Of a DNA stretch of 64,000 nucleotides, positions 17,822 to 27,067 are shown one piece after another (within the stretch, counting starts at the first letter, position 1; every line of letters starts with the position of its first letter). The notes beneath the pieces are model-generated. The model was not told the DNA's origin and made no database searches. It saw only the letters and a program-made list of their open reading frames with translations. Location of the stretch: assembly GCA_903918755.1 (NCBI GenBank), contig CAIXFN010000028.1:62001-126000 (forward strand), given 5' to 3'. The translations under genes were made by a program, and so were the position numbers. Source of the DNA: an uncultured Pedosphaera sp. (GTDB lineage: Bacteria; Verrucomicrobiota; Verrucomicrobiia; Limisphaerales; Pedosphaeraceae).

Positions 17822-18841
17822 TCACTCGCGGCCCGCCGCGGCCAGAAACGGCTTCAACTCCGTCATCAAGCGGGCGAACATTTCCAGCGACAGTTGTTGC
17901 GCGGCATCACTGAGCGCCTTCGCCGGATTGGGGTGAACTTCAATCAATAGGGCGTCCGCGCCCATGGCCACCGCGCCCTTGCACATGGACATGACCAGAT
18001 CCGCCCGGCCCGCGCCCTGGCTGGGATCAATCACGATGGGCGAATGCGATTCCTTCTTGATGATCGGAATGGTGGAAAGATCCAGCGTGTTCCGGGTGTA
18101 GGTTTCGAAGGTGCGAATGCCGCGTTCGCAGAACAACAGGTTGGGGTTGTTATTGGACAGGACGTATTCGCCCGCCAGCAACCACTCCTCGATCCGCATC
18201 GAAAGCCCGCGTTTCAACAAGACCGGTTTGCCCGTCTTGGCCGCGGCGATCAGCAACTGGAAATTCTGGGAATTGCGTGCGCCGATCTGGATGATGTCCG
18301 TGTACTCCGCCACCATCTCCGCGTGGTCCTCGGACAACAATTCCGTGATGATCCCCAGTCCGGTTTCCTGGCGGGCCTTGTCCAGCAATTTCAAGCCTTT
18401 GAGGCCCAGGCCCTGGAACTCATAGGGCGAGGTGCGCGGTTTGAAGGCGCCGCCCCGCAGAATGGTCGCCCCGGCCGCTTTAACGGCGTGCGCGGTCTTC
18501 AACAACTGGTCCTCGCTCTCCACGGAGCAGGGTCCGGCCATGATCTGGACTTTTTTGCCACCGATGATGGTGCCGCGGACGTCGATGGTCGAATTGGCCG
18601 GGTGCGCTTCGCGACTCACGAGCTTGTAGCGCTTCTGCACCGGCATCACGCTTTCGACCGCGTTGGGGAAATTGGTCGGCAGGCTTTCCAGCGATTGGTG
18701 GGTCAACTCATCGCCGATGGCGCCAATGACCGTCCGGGCCACGCCGCGCATGATGTGCGGGATGTAACCGAGCCGTTTGATCTCGCGGACCACGGCGGCC
18801 TCTTCGCGTTTGCTGATTTTAGGTTTGAGGACAATGATCAT
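17822..18841 (-). CDS. aroF: 3-deoxy-7-phosphoheptulonate (DAHP) synthase, AroF type I-beta
   Basis: This enzyme makes the first committed step of the shikimate pathway, joining phosphoenolpyruvate and erythrose 4-phosphate. Residues 1-70 are a ferredoxin-like/ACT-like regulatory domain (MIIVLKPKISKREEAAVVRE), as in the Thermotoga enzyme. The barrel carries IMAGPCSVESEDQL with the metal-binding Cys, GGAFKPRTSPYEFQGLG, and a late HSPIVIDPSQGAGRADLV with the metal-binding His. At 339 residues it is normal for the class. The upstream leader (18842-19060) looks like a ribosome-mediated attenuator driven by Phe, Tyr and Trp codons. The gene appears monocistronic in the window. Confidence 0.95.
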   Translation of the reverse strand: MIIVLKPKISKREEAAVVREIKRLGYIPHIMRGVARTVIGAIGDELTHQSLESLPTNFPNAVESVMPVQKRYKLVSREAHPANSTIDVRGTIIGGKKVQIMAGPCSVESEDQLLKTAHAVKAAGATILRGGAFKPRTSPYEFQGLGLKGLKLLDKARQETGLGIITELLSEDHAEMVAEYTDIIQIGARNSQNFQLLIAAAKTGKPVLLKRGLSMRIEEWLLAGEYVLSNNNPNLLFCERGIRTFETYTRNTLDLSTIPIIKKESHSPIVIDPSQGAGRADLVMSMCKGAVAMGADALLIEVHPNPAKALSDAAQQLSLEMFARLMTELKPFLAAAGRE

Positions 18842-18880
18842 ACTTTATTGATGCTCTCTGGGTTGGGCCGGGGTCGCCAC

Positions 18881-18908
18881 AAAAAAAACCGCAGGTGGTG
18901 ACCTGCGG
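18881..18908 (-). terminator. Attenuator terminator in the aroF leader
   Basis: On the minus strand the arms CCGCAGGT (18901-18908) and ACCTGCGG (18889-18896) form a perfect 8-bp stem with a 4-nt loop, followed at once by eight U residues (18881-18888). It ends about 40 nt before the aroF start codon, so it would abort the aroF transcript. Its 5' arm also pairs with codons 26-28 of the leader peptide (18937-18944 with 18904-18911, 8 bp), which is an antiterminator. Confidence 0.85.
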
Positions 18909-18930
18909 CTGGGTTGGGAATTTTTGGTGA

Positions 18931-19020
18931 CTAGCGCAGCCGCACACGCCAATCCGCCGGGCTAAAGCAATAACGCCAGCCCGTCCGGCAGCCTGCAAAA
19001 TAAAATCGGCTTGAATGCAC
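18931..19020 (-). CDS. Aromatic amino acid leader peptide (29 aa) of aroF
   Basis: This ORF is GTG-initiated and ends at TAG, 22 nt before the attenuator stem. It encodes MHSSRFYFAGC, then RTGWRYCF, then SPADWRVRLR. Seven of 29 residues are aromatic (F6, Y7, F8, W15, Y17, F19, W24), a composition suited to sensing all three end products of the shikimate pathway. A stalled ribosome would free 18937-18944 to pair with the terminator 5' arm; a ribosome that reaches the stop codon would cover it. A second hairpin (CGGGCT 18978-18983 with AGCCCG 18958-18963) encloses codons 15-19. There is no Shine-Dalgarno sequence, and the predicted transcription start is within a few nt of GTG, so translation may be leaderless. 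Confidence 0.75.
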   Translation of the reverse strand: MHSSRFYFAGCRTGWRYCFSPADWRVRLR

Positions 19021-19029
19021 TGTAAGGGG

Positions 19030-19057
19030 AAAGTACCAAACCCACCGCTCCTGTCAA
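19030..19057 (-). promoter_or_regulatory. Promoter of the aroF leader
   Basis: TTGACA (19052-19057) is a perfect -35 box. TACTTT (19030-19035) follows after a 16-bp spacer as a weak -10. The predicted start falls at about 19022, immediately before the leader peptide GTG. Confidence 0.55.
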
Positions 19058-19104
19058 GTTCGCGGAAAATGACTGATTCTCCCCGAGGTGGGAAGATTAG
19101 ACAG

Positions 19105-19196
19105 GATGGACAGGATTTTCAGGATGAAAGATGGACACGCGCCGCGCGGCTGGAGCCTTATTCCGGTCCATCATTCACAATCCTGTAAATCCTGTC
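19105..19196. repeat. 92-bp hairpin-ended repeat, copy 1
   Basis: The element begins GATGGACAGGATTTTCAGG and ends AATCCTGTAAATCCTGTC. Those ends are near-perfect inverted repeats (about 16 of 17 positions), so the unit can fold as a hairpin. A second copy lies 58 bp downstream. No coding potential is seen. Confidence 0.8.
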
Positions 19197-19253
19197 TCAA
19201 TTCCGGGCTTCATAATTTTGGCTTCATGCGCGCTGGTTCGAACGTTTCGATGG

Positions 19254-19345
19254 GATGGACAGGATTTTCAGGATGAGAGATGGACACGCGCCGCTCGGCT
19301 GGGGCCTTATTCCGGTCCATCATGTTCAATCCGGTAAATCCTGTC
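19254..19345. repeat. 92-bp hairpin-ended repeat, copy 2
   Basis: This is a direct repeat of the element at 19105-19196 with roughly 90% identity, including the internal GATGGACACGCGCCGC. It sits about 120 bp before the next gene. It is probably a dispersed REP/MITE-like family of the genome. Confidence 0.8.
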
Positions 19346-19468
19346 CAAATGCCGTTTGATTCTTCGCGCTCTTTGCGACCTTCAGTTCAAAAATCTCGTC
19401 TGCATCCGCCGCCCAAGCGACGCTTTCGCCCCTTGATTACCGAATCGCCCGTTGTACTATCTCGCCCC

Positions 19469-22400
19469 ATGCTTAAGACTCAACTCTGGCCCGGCATGAA
19501 CCGGGTGGCGCTCGGCTTGACCCTGCTGGGCGCGGTTTCCGGCCACGCCGCGGAACCGGCCATCGATGCCGAACTGGCCATCAAACAATTTCAAGTGCCC
19601 CCCGGCTTCAAGATCGAATTATGGGCCACCGAACCCCAGTTGATGAATCCCGTCGCCTTCGGCTTTGATGAGCGCGGCCGGGTTTACGTGGTCGAAACGT
19701 TCCGCTACGGCACCAGCGTTTACGACATCCGCGACCACATGAACATGTACAACGACGATCTCGCCTCGCGCACGGTGGAGGATCGTCTGGCCATGGTGAA
19801 GAAATACCTGGGAGCGGAGGTCGGCAAAATGGCGGTGGAATCCGAAGTCGTCCGCCTGCTGGAAGACCGCGCGGGGAAAGGCCGGGCGGATCAATCCACC
19901 GTTTTTGCCGATGGCTTCAACACCCTCGCCGACGGCGTCGCCGCCGGCGTGCTGGCGCGCAAGGACAAAGTTTACCTCGCGAACCTCCCCAACCTCTGGC
20001 TGTTGCAGGACACCAACCATGACGGCAAAGCCGATGTCCGGACTTCGCTGAGCTACGGCTATGGCGTGCATTTCAACCTCACCGGCCATGATCTGCACGG
20101 GCTGCGGATGGGTCCGGATGGCAAATTGTATTTCTCCATGGGCGACCGCGGCATCCATGTTCGAACGAGGGAAGGCACGTTGCTGGATTACCCGGACATG
20201 GGCGGCGTGTTGCGTTGCAACCCGGACGGCTCCGGCCTGGAGATGTTTGCCTACGGCCTGCGCAATCCCCAGGAACTCGCCTTTGACGATCACGGCAATT
20301 TGTTCACCGGGGACAATAATTGCGATCACGGGGACGCCGCGCGTCTGGTTTATGTGGTGGAAGGTGGCGACACCGGTTGGCGCACCCCGAACCAGTTCAG
20401 CGAGACGACCCCGGCGGGCGTGTGGAACGCCGAGAATCTCTGGCACCTTCAGTATCCCGGCCAGGCCGCCTACATTCTGCCCCCGGCGGCCCATGTCGCC
20501 AACGGTCCCTCCGGATTCACGCACTATCCCGGCACCGGCTTTTCCCCGGCCTATCGCGATCACTTTTTCCTCTGCGATTTCCGCGGGTCCAGTGGCAACA
20601 GCGGCGTGCATTCGTTCGCGGTCGAACAAAACGGCGCGACGTTCAAAATGGTGGATCACAAAAACTTCTTCTGGGGCGTGCTGGCCACCGACGCTGATTT
20701 CAGCCCGGACGGCCAATTGTATGTGACCGATTGGGTGCAGGGCTGGCCCCAGTCCGCCCACGGCCGCATCTACCGCTGCTTCGATCCGGCCAACGTGAAC
20801 AGCCCGCTGGTGTTGGAAACCAAAAAATTGATCGCCGAGGGCATGACCAAACGTTCGCTGCAGGAATTGGCCGCCCTCCTCGCCCACTCCGATCAACGAG
20901 TGCGCCAGGAAGCGCAATTTGAACTCGCCGACCGCGGCACCTCCGGCGCCAAAGTCCTGGAAACCGCCGCTGCCAAATCCCCGAATCAACTGGCCCGCCT
21001 CCATGGCATTTGGGGCCTCGGCCAACTCGCGGCCCGCGCCCATCATTCCCTTGCCCCGGTGGCGAAACAGCTCGCAGATCCCGATCCGGAAGTCCGCGCC
21101 CAGGCCGCCAAGGTCGTGGGTGACGGCCATTATGCCCCGGCTGCTGCCGCGTTGATCACTTTGCTGGCCGATTCCGAACCGCGGGCGCAGTTTTTCAGCG
21201 CCATCAGCCTCGGCAAACTGGCCACGCCGGACGCCGTGGACCCGCTGCTGGAAATGCTGCGGCAGAATGCGGACAAGGATGTTTATCTCCGGCACGCCGG
21301 AGTCATGGGCCTGCTCGGCACCGCGCCCCGCGCCCGCCTGATCACGGCCGCCAGCGATAGCTCGCCCGCGGTTCGCATGGCGGTGTTGCTCGCCATGCGC
21401 CGCAGTGAAATGCCGGAGATCGCCACGTTCCTGCACGATACCGACCCGTTGATCGTGCTGGAAGCGGCGCGGGCCATCAATGACGTGGCCATCCCGGCCG
21501 CGTTGCCCGAACTGGCGTCGCTAGCCCGCCACCCGCGCAAGAATGATCCGCTGGATTGGCGCGTCGTCAATGCCGGTTACCGGGTCGGTCGCCCGGAAAA
21601 TGCCACGCTCCTCGCCCACCTGGCCGGGGATGAAGGTGCCAGTGAAAAGGTCCGCGCGGAAGCCTTGCGCGATCTGGAAACCTGGGCCGCCCCCACTCCC
21701 CGTGACCGGTTGACGGGCCTGTGGCAGCCGTTGTCGGGCCGCGATAGTCAACCGGCTGTCGCCGCCCTGCGTCCGGTGATTGCCGAACTGGTGGAAAAAT
21801 CCCCCGCCCCGGTGCAAATCGCCGCCATGCATGCCGCCCGCCAACTCGGCTTGAAGGAAGCCGGCCCGGCGATGGTGATCGTCGTGGCCAATCCTAAAGC
21901 GCGCGCCAATGTGCGCGTGGAGGCGCTCAAAGCCCTGGAAGCCATGCACGATCCGGGCGTCGCGGAAGCCGTGAAACTCGCGGTGGCGGATGAAAATCAA
22001 ACCGTCCGCACCGAGGGTAACCGCGTGCAGGCGATGCTCCAACCCGGCGATGCCACGGGCAACCTGGCGGCCGTTCTGGAAAAGGGCTCGCTGCCCGAAA
22101 AGCAGGGCGCCCTGGCCACACTGGGCAAATTGACCGACACCGGGGCCGAATCGTTGCTGGCCGGGTGGGTGACCAAACTGGGCGCCGGACAGGTGGAAAA
22201 AGAATTGCAGTTCGACGTCCTGCAGGCCGCGGCGCAGCATCCGAATGCCGCCGCCATCCAGGATGAACTCAAAAAATACCTGGCCGGTCATCCCACCGGC
22301 GATCCGTTCGCCGGCTTCCGCGAGACGCTTTACGGCGGCGATGCTGAAGCCGGTCGCAAGGTCTTCCTGGAAAAGCCGGAAGCCGCCTGCACCCGCTGCC

Positions 22401-22762
22401 ATAAAATCAATGGTTCGGGCGGTGAGGTCGGACCGGAATTGACCGGCATCATCACCCGGCACGACCGCGAGTACATCCTGGAGTCGATCCTGTACCCGAA
22501 CAAACAGATCGCCGCCGGGTTTGAAAGCGTGCTCATCAAATTGAAGAACGGCGAATTGTACGCCGGCATCGTGAAAAGCGAAGACGCCACCGACTTGGTG
22601 CTCAATGCCAACGACGACGGCATCTTCAAGATCATGAAATTCAAAGTCGCCGACATCGAATCCCGGCAGCGTGGCCAGTCCGCCATGCCCGAAGGACTCG
22701 GCCAGGTGCTCTCGAAAGCGGACATCCGCAACCTCGTGGAATTCCTGGCCAACGTGAAGTAA
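19469..22762 (+). CDS. Secreted NHL-propeller/HEAT protein with C-terminal cytochrome c domain
   Basis: This is a 1097-residue export protein (signal GLTLLGAVSGHAAEP). Residues about 35-430 form a PQQ-dehydrogenase-like/NHL propeller (FKIELWATEPQLMNPVAF, DLHGLRMGPDGKLYFSMGD, GLRNPQELAFDDHGNLF). Residues about 450-940 are HEAT-like repeats (RAQAAKVVGDGHYAPAAAAL). A heme c site CTRCH lies near residue 973 in the GSGGEVGPELTGI context. This is the large membrane-bound dehydrogenase type common in Planctomycetes and Verrucomicrobia. The substrate is unknown; carbohydrate oxidation is often guessed. The start at 19469 was chosen for its signal peptide; a second Met lies nine codons in. Confidence 0.85.
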   Translation: MLKTQLWPGMNRVALGLTLLGAVSGHAAEPAIDAELAIKQFQVPPGFKIELWATEPQLMNPVAFGFDERGRVYVVETFRYGTSVYDIRDHMNMYNDDLASRTVEDRLAMVKKYLGAEVGKMAVESEVVRLLEDRAGKGRADQSTVFADGFNTLADGVAAGVLARKDKVYLANLPNLWLLQDTNHDGKADVRTSLSYGYGVHFNLTGHDLHGLRMGPDGKLYFSMGDRGIHVRTREGTLLDYPDMGGVLRCNPDGSGLEMFAYGLRNPQELAFDDHGNLFTGDNNCDHGDAARLVYVVEGGDTGWRTPNQFSETTPAGVWNAENLWHLQYPGQAAYILPPAAHVANGPSGFTHYPGTGFSPAYRDHFFLCDFRGSSGNSGVHSFAVEQNGATFKMVDHKNFFWGVLATDADFSPDGQLYVTDWVQGWPQSAHGRIYRCFDPANVNSPLVLETKKLIAEGMTKRSLQELAALLAHSDQRVRQEAQFELADRGTSGAKVLETAAAKSPNQLARLHGIWGLGQLAARAHHSLAPVAKQLADPDPEVRAQAAKVVGDGHYAPAAAALITLLADSEPRAQFFSAISLGKLATPDAVDPLLEMLRQNADKDVYLRHAGVMGLLGTAPRARLITAASDSSPAVRMAVLLAMRRSEMPEIATFLHDTDPLIVLEAARAINDVAIPAALPELASLARHPRKNDPLDWRVVNAGYRVGRPENATLLAHLAGDEGASEKVRAEALRDLETWAAPTPRDRLTGLWQPLSGRDSQPAVAALRPVIAELVEKSPAPVQIAAMHAARQLGLKEAGPAMVIVVANPKARANVRVEALKALEAMHDPGVAEAVKLAVADENQTVRTEGNRVQAMLQPGDATGNLAAVLEKGSLPEKQGALATLGKLTDTGAESLLAGWVTKLGAGQVEKELQFDVLQAAAQHPNAAAIQDELKKYLAGHPTGDPFAGFRETLYGGDAEAGRKVFLEKPEAACTRCHKINGSGGEVGPELTGIITRHDREYILESILYPNKQIAAGFESVLIKLKNGELYAGIVKSEDATDLVLNANDDGIFKIMKFKVADIESRQRGQSAMPEGLGQVLSKADIRNLVEFLANVK

Positions 22763-26990: not shown

Positions 26991-27067
26991 GCGAGCGTAG
27001 CTCAGTCTGGTAGAGCATCACCTTGCCAAGGTGAACGTCGAGGGTTCGAATCCCTTCGCTCGCTCCA
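26991..27067 (+). tRNA. tRNA-Gly (anticodon GCC)
   Basis: The 77-nt gene has the acceptor pair GCGAGCG/CGCTCGC, a D-arm AGCTCAGTCTGGTAGAGC, the anticodon loop TTGCCAA (anticodon GCC), a T-arm GAGGGTTCGAATCCCTT and an encoded CCA end. All stems pair. The AT-richer accessory region begins immediately after its 3' end, a usual place for integration. I did not find a second copy of the tRNA 3' end that would mark a right attachment site. Confidence 0.97.

Follow-up and report, generated by a model that had tools for sequence, protein, structure and literature searches.

How is entry into aromatic amino acid synthesis controlled in an uncultured Pedosphaera sp., and could one short leader peptide report on phenylalanine, tyrosine, and tryptophan together? 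The question is raised by the DNA upstream of aroF, which presumably encodes a class I-beta enzyme, in a stretch of 64,000 nucleotides (the window). The gene (17822-18841, minus strand) encodes a 3-deoxy-7-phosphoheptulonate (DAHP) synthase of 339 aa with a ferredoxin-like N-terminal domain (NCBIfam NF006421; Pfam DAHP_synth_1 and DAHP_snth_FXD), and kdsA comes next after it. Comparison with related genomes and models of RNA folding make it very probable that aroF is governed by a ribosome-mediated transcription attenuator that reads charged tRNA-Phe, tRNA-Tyr, and tRNA-Trp together.

All parts of the candidate element lie on the minus strand. It begins with a -35 element, TTGACA (19052-19057), and, after a 16-nt spacer, a -10 element, TACTTT (19030-19035), that ends 9 nt ahead of a GTG start codon at 19020. 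The leader ORF (18931-19020, TAG at 18933-18931) has 29 codons and translates up to its stop as (V)HSSRFYFAGCRTGWRYCFSPADWRVRLR, in full VHSSRFYFAGCRTGWRYCFSPADWRVRLR. Seven of its residues are aromatic (F6, Y7, F8, W15, Y17, F19, and W24). The first run, Phe-Tyr-Phe, occupies codons 6 to 8 (18997-19005), while W15, Y17, and F19 (18964-18978; codons -15, -13, and -11 counted back from the stop) are the presumed control codons, judged by a family-wide aromatic peak at -13 to -11. They are enclosed by a hairpin, P1 (CGGGCTGG/TTAGCCCG; 18958-18983), in which 18983-18976 pairs with 18965-18958, as indicated by folding and family tests. The last leader codons hold the antiterminator 5' strand TGCGGCTG (18937-18944), identified by sequence and pairing tests, and its exact complement CAGCCGCA (18904-18911) lies in and before the 5' arm of an intrinsic terminator (18881-18910). 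The terminator core is CCGCAGGT/cacc/ACCTGCGG followed by eight T (18908-18881), with the stem at 18908-18901/18896-18889, the loop at 18900-18897, and the T-run at 18888-18881. The original prediction had named the promoter, the GTG-started ORF with its seven aromatic residues, the 8-nt complementarity, and a perfect 8-bp terminator with U8, and direct reading of the minus strand bears out each of these to the base. The hairpin around the control codons and the near-zero 5' untranslated region of the leader go beyond it.

The promoter has a weak -10 hexamer (three of six positions match TATAAT) and is not listed by a generic promoter scan. The arrangement of TTGAC, 33-40 nt, a start codon, and an ORF of 18-42 codons occurs at seven places on the two strands of the window; only at the aroF leader is it followed by a terminator, and only there does the ORF have six or more aromatic residues. 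Terminator-like sites are about as frequent in the window as in shuffled versions of it (6 vs 5.5), and the aroF terminator has the longest stem among them. In the 7.19-Mb genome to which the window belongs, a model of the element (R1) has one strong match, at 96.3 bits, followed by one at 18.2, the window being itself one of the rows of the model. No such element, and no terminator-like hairpin within 350 nt upstream, was found at trpE, pabB, pheA, or the second DAHP synthase gene of this genome (G000:C39 49829-50716, locus L001), which is E. coli-like by reading of its sequence. The ORF rich in aromatic codons before trpE is the tail end of the gene upstream. Two 109-nt direct repeats of the ACAGGATTTACAGGATT kind (19097-19205 and 19246-19354; 88% alike, spacing 149) lie just upstream of the aroF promoter, and a divergent gene (19280-22762, plus strand) encodes a 1,160-aa protein with DUF7133, HEAT repeats, and a cytochrome c domain.

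To place the leader among relatives, aroF loci were collected from two scans. A search with AroF gave matches in 94 of 97 genomes (E≤0.001), the weak matches looking like other members of the superfamily, including the KDO8P synthase of the window; close, nearly full-length AroF, read from the table, is present in 60 genomes including that of the window, with pieces in two more (G081 and G033). A second scan named 80 loci, mostly from Pedosphaera, Limisphaerales, Verrucomicrobiales, or Verrucomicrobia, and a few from Akkermansia, Omnitrophota, and Proteobacteria. Once duplicates were taken out, 90 distinct upstream regions remained. Fourteen of them have no ORF by the rule applied, three of these on contigs that end within 152 nt and one (L093) with its leader behind a tRNA gene; the ORFs of L081 and L104 were rejected by eye as implausible, which left 74 leaders chosen by rule. 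Seventeen loci picked because a leader was visible were added, for a set of 91. The alignment has 63 rows, 11 of the 74 leaders being left out, and 63 leaders went into R1, whose matches on those rows are by construction. ORF choice for the 74- and 91-leader sets rewarded aromatic codons; when the 74 were rerun without that term, 72 were unchanged.

The original prediction had proposed aligning the regions upstream of aroF as a check, and in this comparison aromatic leader peptides are conserved in relatives. Sorted by script, the leader is present in 50 of 58 genomes of the order, that of the window included, and absent by rule in eight (L021, L025, L029, L031, L161, L169, L121, and L177); a 59th, G021, has the leader MNSGSPRFMDRFAGWYFCRADLLAGLR by direct reading (L220), bringing the directly read total to 51 of 59. 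A survey of 116 genomes of the order with R1 gave matches in 72 at E≤0.001, several weak ones covering only the 3' part of the model; G091 has a model match only (E 4.9e-6). In the class outside the order, 5 of 36 loci carry the leader (L125 having been mis-placed by the start finder and L135 being doubtful), all in family f67 of another order. Six f67 genomes have a match; five of these carry the leader, and L141 has a terminator without one. The f67 leaders, such as MQGHRQHSFATAWFYYFSHCPRALC, are still aromatic, and they differ in the terminator (CCGTCCCGC...GCGGGGCGG) and also in the tail. No leader is present at second copies of the gene in four f67 genomes (L147-L150), and no leader with a terminator was seen at the other 31 class loci, L125 again not being properly placed. 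Across the phylum, no aromatic leader with a terminator was found in 27 loci scanned among the matches listed, the gene start being mis-set in at least two of them (L188 and L201); terminator-like hairpins occur at L184, L198, and L199, and an aromatic-rich ORF without one at L187.

Several loci depart from this layout. L029 and L031 (family f37) keep the promoter and terminator, the aromatic leader is gone, and a short ORF runs into the terminator, which suggests a decayed or rewired attenuator. L081 and L161, which are identical in their upstream DNA, lack both leader and terminator, have a TTGACG promoter-like sequence immediately ahead of aroF, and look as if the attenuator had been deleted. 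In L131 (same class, family f82), 400 nt upstream of aroF, there is an aromatic-rich ORF, MVKNQVYFSLLWSYYFVSISRFCWGLNDPKKGPRTPVT, with no terminator visible; this is perhaps another type of control.

In the leaders themselves, 487 of 1,963 in-frame codons are aromatic (24.8% over the 74 leaders; 7 of 29 in the window); composition alone would give 9.7%, and the remaining five frames have 1.6-9.7%. These short ORFs are thus rich in codons for the products of the pathway, as in known attenuators, and the count is 482 of 1,973 when the ORF is picked regardless of aromatics. Over 91 leaders the aromatic share is 0.73, 0.85, and 0.68 at codons -13, -12, and -11, and at most 0.13 from codon -9 on, except for 0.18 at -6. 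None of 1,000 codon shuffles reached the peak of 0.85 at -12 (shuffle maximum 0.44), and at least one aromatic codon is found at -13 to -11 in 89 of the 91. All three of F, W, and Y are present in 61 of 74 leaders and fall within codons -16 to -10 in 54 of 91, a pattern that fits the predicted sensing of all three aromatic amino acids by one peptide. The residues interchange at -14 to -10 (F 18, W 16, and Y 13 at -14; Y 36, F 32, and W 9 at -12), as a pooled sensor would allow.

An intrinsic terminator lies between the leader ORF and the gene, the exceptions being L010, whose hairpin has no T-run, and L015, L017, and L074, whose hairpins are unlike the rest. In the 74 leaders, pairing between the leader tail and the terminator arm is -18.5 kcal/mol, compared with -15.9 for swapped, -15.4 for synonymous, and -13.9 for shuffled versions, and the tail pairs better than its synonymous versions in 71. 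In the set of 91 this holds for 84 (7/8, 54/59, 2/3, 9/9, 7/7, and 5/5 by class), the advantage of the window's own tail over its synonymous versions being slight (-16.2 vs -15.5). The seven leaders of the GCCGCCGG-terminator lineages reach -25.6 on their own arms, where foreign tails give only -13.9 to -19.0, the CAGCCGC tails reaching the -19.0. On the AroF tree, which does not include f67, the GCCGCCGG label needs at least two changes; the starred branches force only one, and a single origin is possible. The window's class (CAGCCGC, eight leaders) pairs at -16.5 with its own arms, and TCGCCGC tails at -20.3 with the same arms. Partner specificity is not general, since classes other than GCCGCCGG have no such exclusiveness. 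The f67 tails exceed their synonymous versions in 5/5 (-12.9 vs -7.8), do no better on their own arms than on those of other classes (-11.7 to -14.7), and on f67 arms beat four of five foreign classes; folding of the whole f67 stretch gives a long, extended antiterminator, which in L143 consists of GCGGG/CCCGC and GTTGACG/CGTCAAC. The terminator itself has little covariation, with two of nine pairs changed on both sides, and was given no weight. On the covarying terminator/antiterminator pairs that the original prediction had asked for, the outcome is positive: pairing exceeds its controls, and the GCCGCCGG lineages supply one clear matched change. In the window's class, own tails are not favored over the tails of certain other classes.

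The hairpin around the control codons also exceeds its controls. P1 scores 11.4 vs 9.45 for synonymous versions, with the natural sequence better in 74 of 91, and its own arms pair at -12.9 vs -10.6 when swapped, with the natural pair better in 66 of 89. Stems of at least five pairs occur in 89 of 91 leaders, with 79 distinct stem sequences; this figure is not telling by itself, and weight is placed on the scores against synonymous codons. Folding within the ORF has a mean z of -1.58 vs synonymous and -2.22 vs dinucleotide controls over the 74 leaders, and of only -0.41 vs synonymous in the window. P1 was tested sequence by sequence because length changes in the leader blur it in an alignment; MAFFT with RNAalifold recovered the terminator only. 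The window's P1 (18983-18958) does not overlap the antiterminator strand (18944-18937). Such absence of overlap is not universal, since the two overlap in L079 of the GCCGCCGG lineage.

The effect of ribosome position was modeled by moving a ribosome along the ORF one codon at a time, with up to 13 nt masked from the first base of the A site, and calculating the chance that upstream RNA holds the terminator 5' arm before the 3' arm is made. For the family this chance is about 0.8 with the A site at -20 to -11, 0.42 at -7, and 0.15 at the stop, and the mean at codon -12 is 0.81, compared with 0.54 when the region is shuffled. In the window it is 0.62-0.88 for codons 6-24 and 0.16-0.18 for codons 25-30; the change comes from codon 24 (0.62) to codon 25 (0.18), which puts W24 at the border. 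Codons -13 to -11 would thus mark roughly the limit up to which a stalled ribosome still keeps the antiterminator unmasked. In the folding models, antiterminator and terminator exclude each other and the outcome depends on where the ribosome stands, as in an attenuator. Both masking thresholds (>0.6 at -12, <0.3 at the stop) are passed by 68 of 91 leaders, and three of the five f67 leaders score only 0.35-0.44. When the ribosome is placed close to the beginning of the ORF, the arm is still held (mean about 0.76). In the classical trp type, a protector hairpin 1:2 sequesters the antiterminator strand. The window does not have this three-way arrangement (1:2, 2:3, 3:4), as no 1:2 hairpin sequesters its antiterminator strand.

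TTGAC or a near form stands 34-40 nt before the start in the 74 leaders; this narrow spacing is partly conditioned, because the search rule favored it by requiring a start 30-45 or 33-41 nt after the -35 element. The distance from the end of the -10 element to the start codon is 6-9 nt in 66 of 74 leaders, and a four-base Shine-Dalgarno match is absent in 64 of 74. Given the spacing of the -35 and -10 elements to the start codon, transcription should begin at that codon or a few bases before it, and the leader mRNA is apparently leaderless or nearly so. An exception is L093, where the leader ORF lies about 20 nt behind a tRNA-Leu(gag) gene (L093 2225-2309) and no TTGAC promoter is seen; leader and tRNA may be co-transcribed.

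The same device could in practice respond to Phe (or Tyr) only, with the Trp and other codons as passengers. Phe is the commonest aromatic residue (249 TTT and 64 TTC of 599 aromatic codons) and stands at codon -11 in 44 of 91 leaders, and the Phe-Tyr-Phe leader of Corynebacterium glutamicum aroR reportedly responds to limitation of Phe and not of Tyr (excerpts of PMC11802643). The interchange of all three residues at -14 to -10, and their joint presence within -16 to -10 in more than half of the leaders, speak for a pooled response instead, and we consider a response to a single amino acid unlikely, though a serious contender. Stalling might also depend on the nascent chain, perhaps on a C-terminal R-L-R, with a free aromatic amino acid or another ligand as the signal in place of uncharged tRNA. 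Codon -2 is L in 53 and codon -1 is R in 38 of 91 leaders, and an Arg-Leu-Arg motif has been linked to stalling in other leader peptides (excerpts of PMC8632094). An arrest peptide of this kind is nonetheless quite improbable, since the C-termini vary with the type of terminator (ending in RLR, GLP, RDA, or RALC), as base pairing would demand, and the residues of the cluster interchange within the aromatic class.

It is very improbable that the hairpin is a constitutive terminator behind an unrelated small protein gene, without any regulation: it does persist without a recognizable leader in L029, L031, and L141, but this is opposed by the stronger-than-control pairing of tail and arm and by where the aromatic codons lie with respect to the masking limit. 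To a riboswitch or T-box in the aroF leader we assign next to no probability. No supporting evidence was found. No family of Rfam release 15 matches here at gathering score; the only such match in the window is a tRNA (26991-27064), and a search of 18800-19100 at E≤10 returned only four weak, unrelated matches far under their cut-offs.

The reading that we prefer, a ribosome-mediated attenuator of aroF, takes its parts from the sequences and their comparison, namely, the ORF, the clustering and position of its aromatic codons, P1, the terminator, and the competing pairing. A mini-gene rich in F, Y, and W codons joined to a switchable stop signal implies that shortage of aromatics should turn DAHP synthase on. 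The transcription start would coincide with the GTG or lie about 3 nt from it at most, and the leader would be translated from a leaderless or nearly leaderless mRNA. When aromatics are plentiful, the ribosome would pass the control codons to the stop and cover the last six to eight codons; with the antiterminator strand masked, the terminator would form and transcription would end. When any one of the aromatics is short, the ribosome would stall at codons 15-19 and leave TGCGGCTG free to pair with CAGCCGCA in the terminator 5' arm, and RNA polymerase would read into aroF. The ribosome would open P1, which may act as a pause hairpin for RNA polymerase. We infer the start site, the stalling, the read-through, and the response to each amino acid from this layout.

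More tentatively, and at somewhat less than an even chance, the element may be an order-wide pooled sensor of total F, Y, and W for the entry enzyme of the pathway, with a leaderless peptide and default-on wiring. An untranslated leader would then allow read-through, and it would take a ribosome arriving at the stop codon to shut transcription off. With such wiring, a mutation of the start codon would raise aroF expression; in trp, a start-codon mutation lowers expression. If the proposed attenuator is real, amino acid synthesis in Verrucomicrobiota would have a regulator at the RNA level, and a single device would tie the first committed reaction of the aromatic pathway to its three end products. 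With so many variants, the rule relating control-codon position to antiterminator masking can be put to the test.

The original prediction also knew of no attenuator of this form described for AroF in Verrucomicrobia. This stands for the host: no leader-peptide attenuator in Verrucomicrobiota was found in the open-licence literature of PubMed Central among the matches listed, some judged by title, and the main texts of PMC11109978 and PMC6429828 contain neither aroF nor Verrucomicrob. In Actinobacteria, no conserved RNA structures were reported upstream of Phe or Tyr operons, as stated in excerpts of PMC1262725. The lack of a precedent does not extend to the kind of mechanism, which is known for DAHP synthase from C. 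glutamicum aroR and the Acholeplasma motif uORFC-13-1.

Attenuation of this class is an established mechanism, with DAHP synthase examples elsewhere. In the enterobacterial trpL and pheL leaders, segment 1:2 competes with the antiterminator; in the window, by contrast, P1 excludes the antiterminator strand, and direct masking of that strand would be left to a ribosome at the stop. Shared with trpL and pheL (named in excerpts of PMC11802643) are control codons, a terminator, and a competing antiterminator, with ribosome position deciding between them. One of the two closest published counterparts is the aroR-aroF attenuator of C. glutamicum (Neshat et al. 2014 as cited in PMC11802643; predicted in PMC4046766; named in PMC3890552), which likewise has a Phe-Tyr-Phe leader before a DAHP synthase gene and stalling-driven read-through under amino acid shortage. 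By its description there, it differs in belonging to another phylum and in combining Phe-Tyr-Phe with a response to Phe only, whereas Trp codons are also frequent in the leaders studied here. The second, the uORFC-13-1 motif upstream of aroF in Acholeplasma, known from 24 examples in one genus and environmental sequences, also combines an upstream ORF with Phe codon(s), an intrinsic terminator, and promoter elements within the motif; as described in excerpts of PMC8632094, it shows a ribosome-binding site and at least one Phe codon, whereas most of the present leaders have no four-base Shine-Dalgarno match and have many F, Y, and W codons. Leaderless peptides have a parallel in Streptomyces lividans, where several leaders are described as such, and attenuators of the ilvL type, as in S. 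lividans ilvL, similarly carry in one leader the codons for several products of a shared pathway, those products being branched-chain and not aromatic amino acids (excerpts of PMC8079986). Set beside these systems, what is new, as far as our searches go, is the host phylum, the conserved control region in which F, Y, and W are pooled, a P1 that does not protect the window's antiterminator, and the breadth of conservation.
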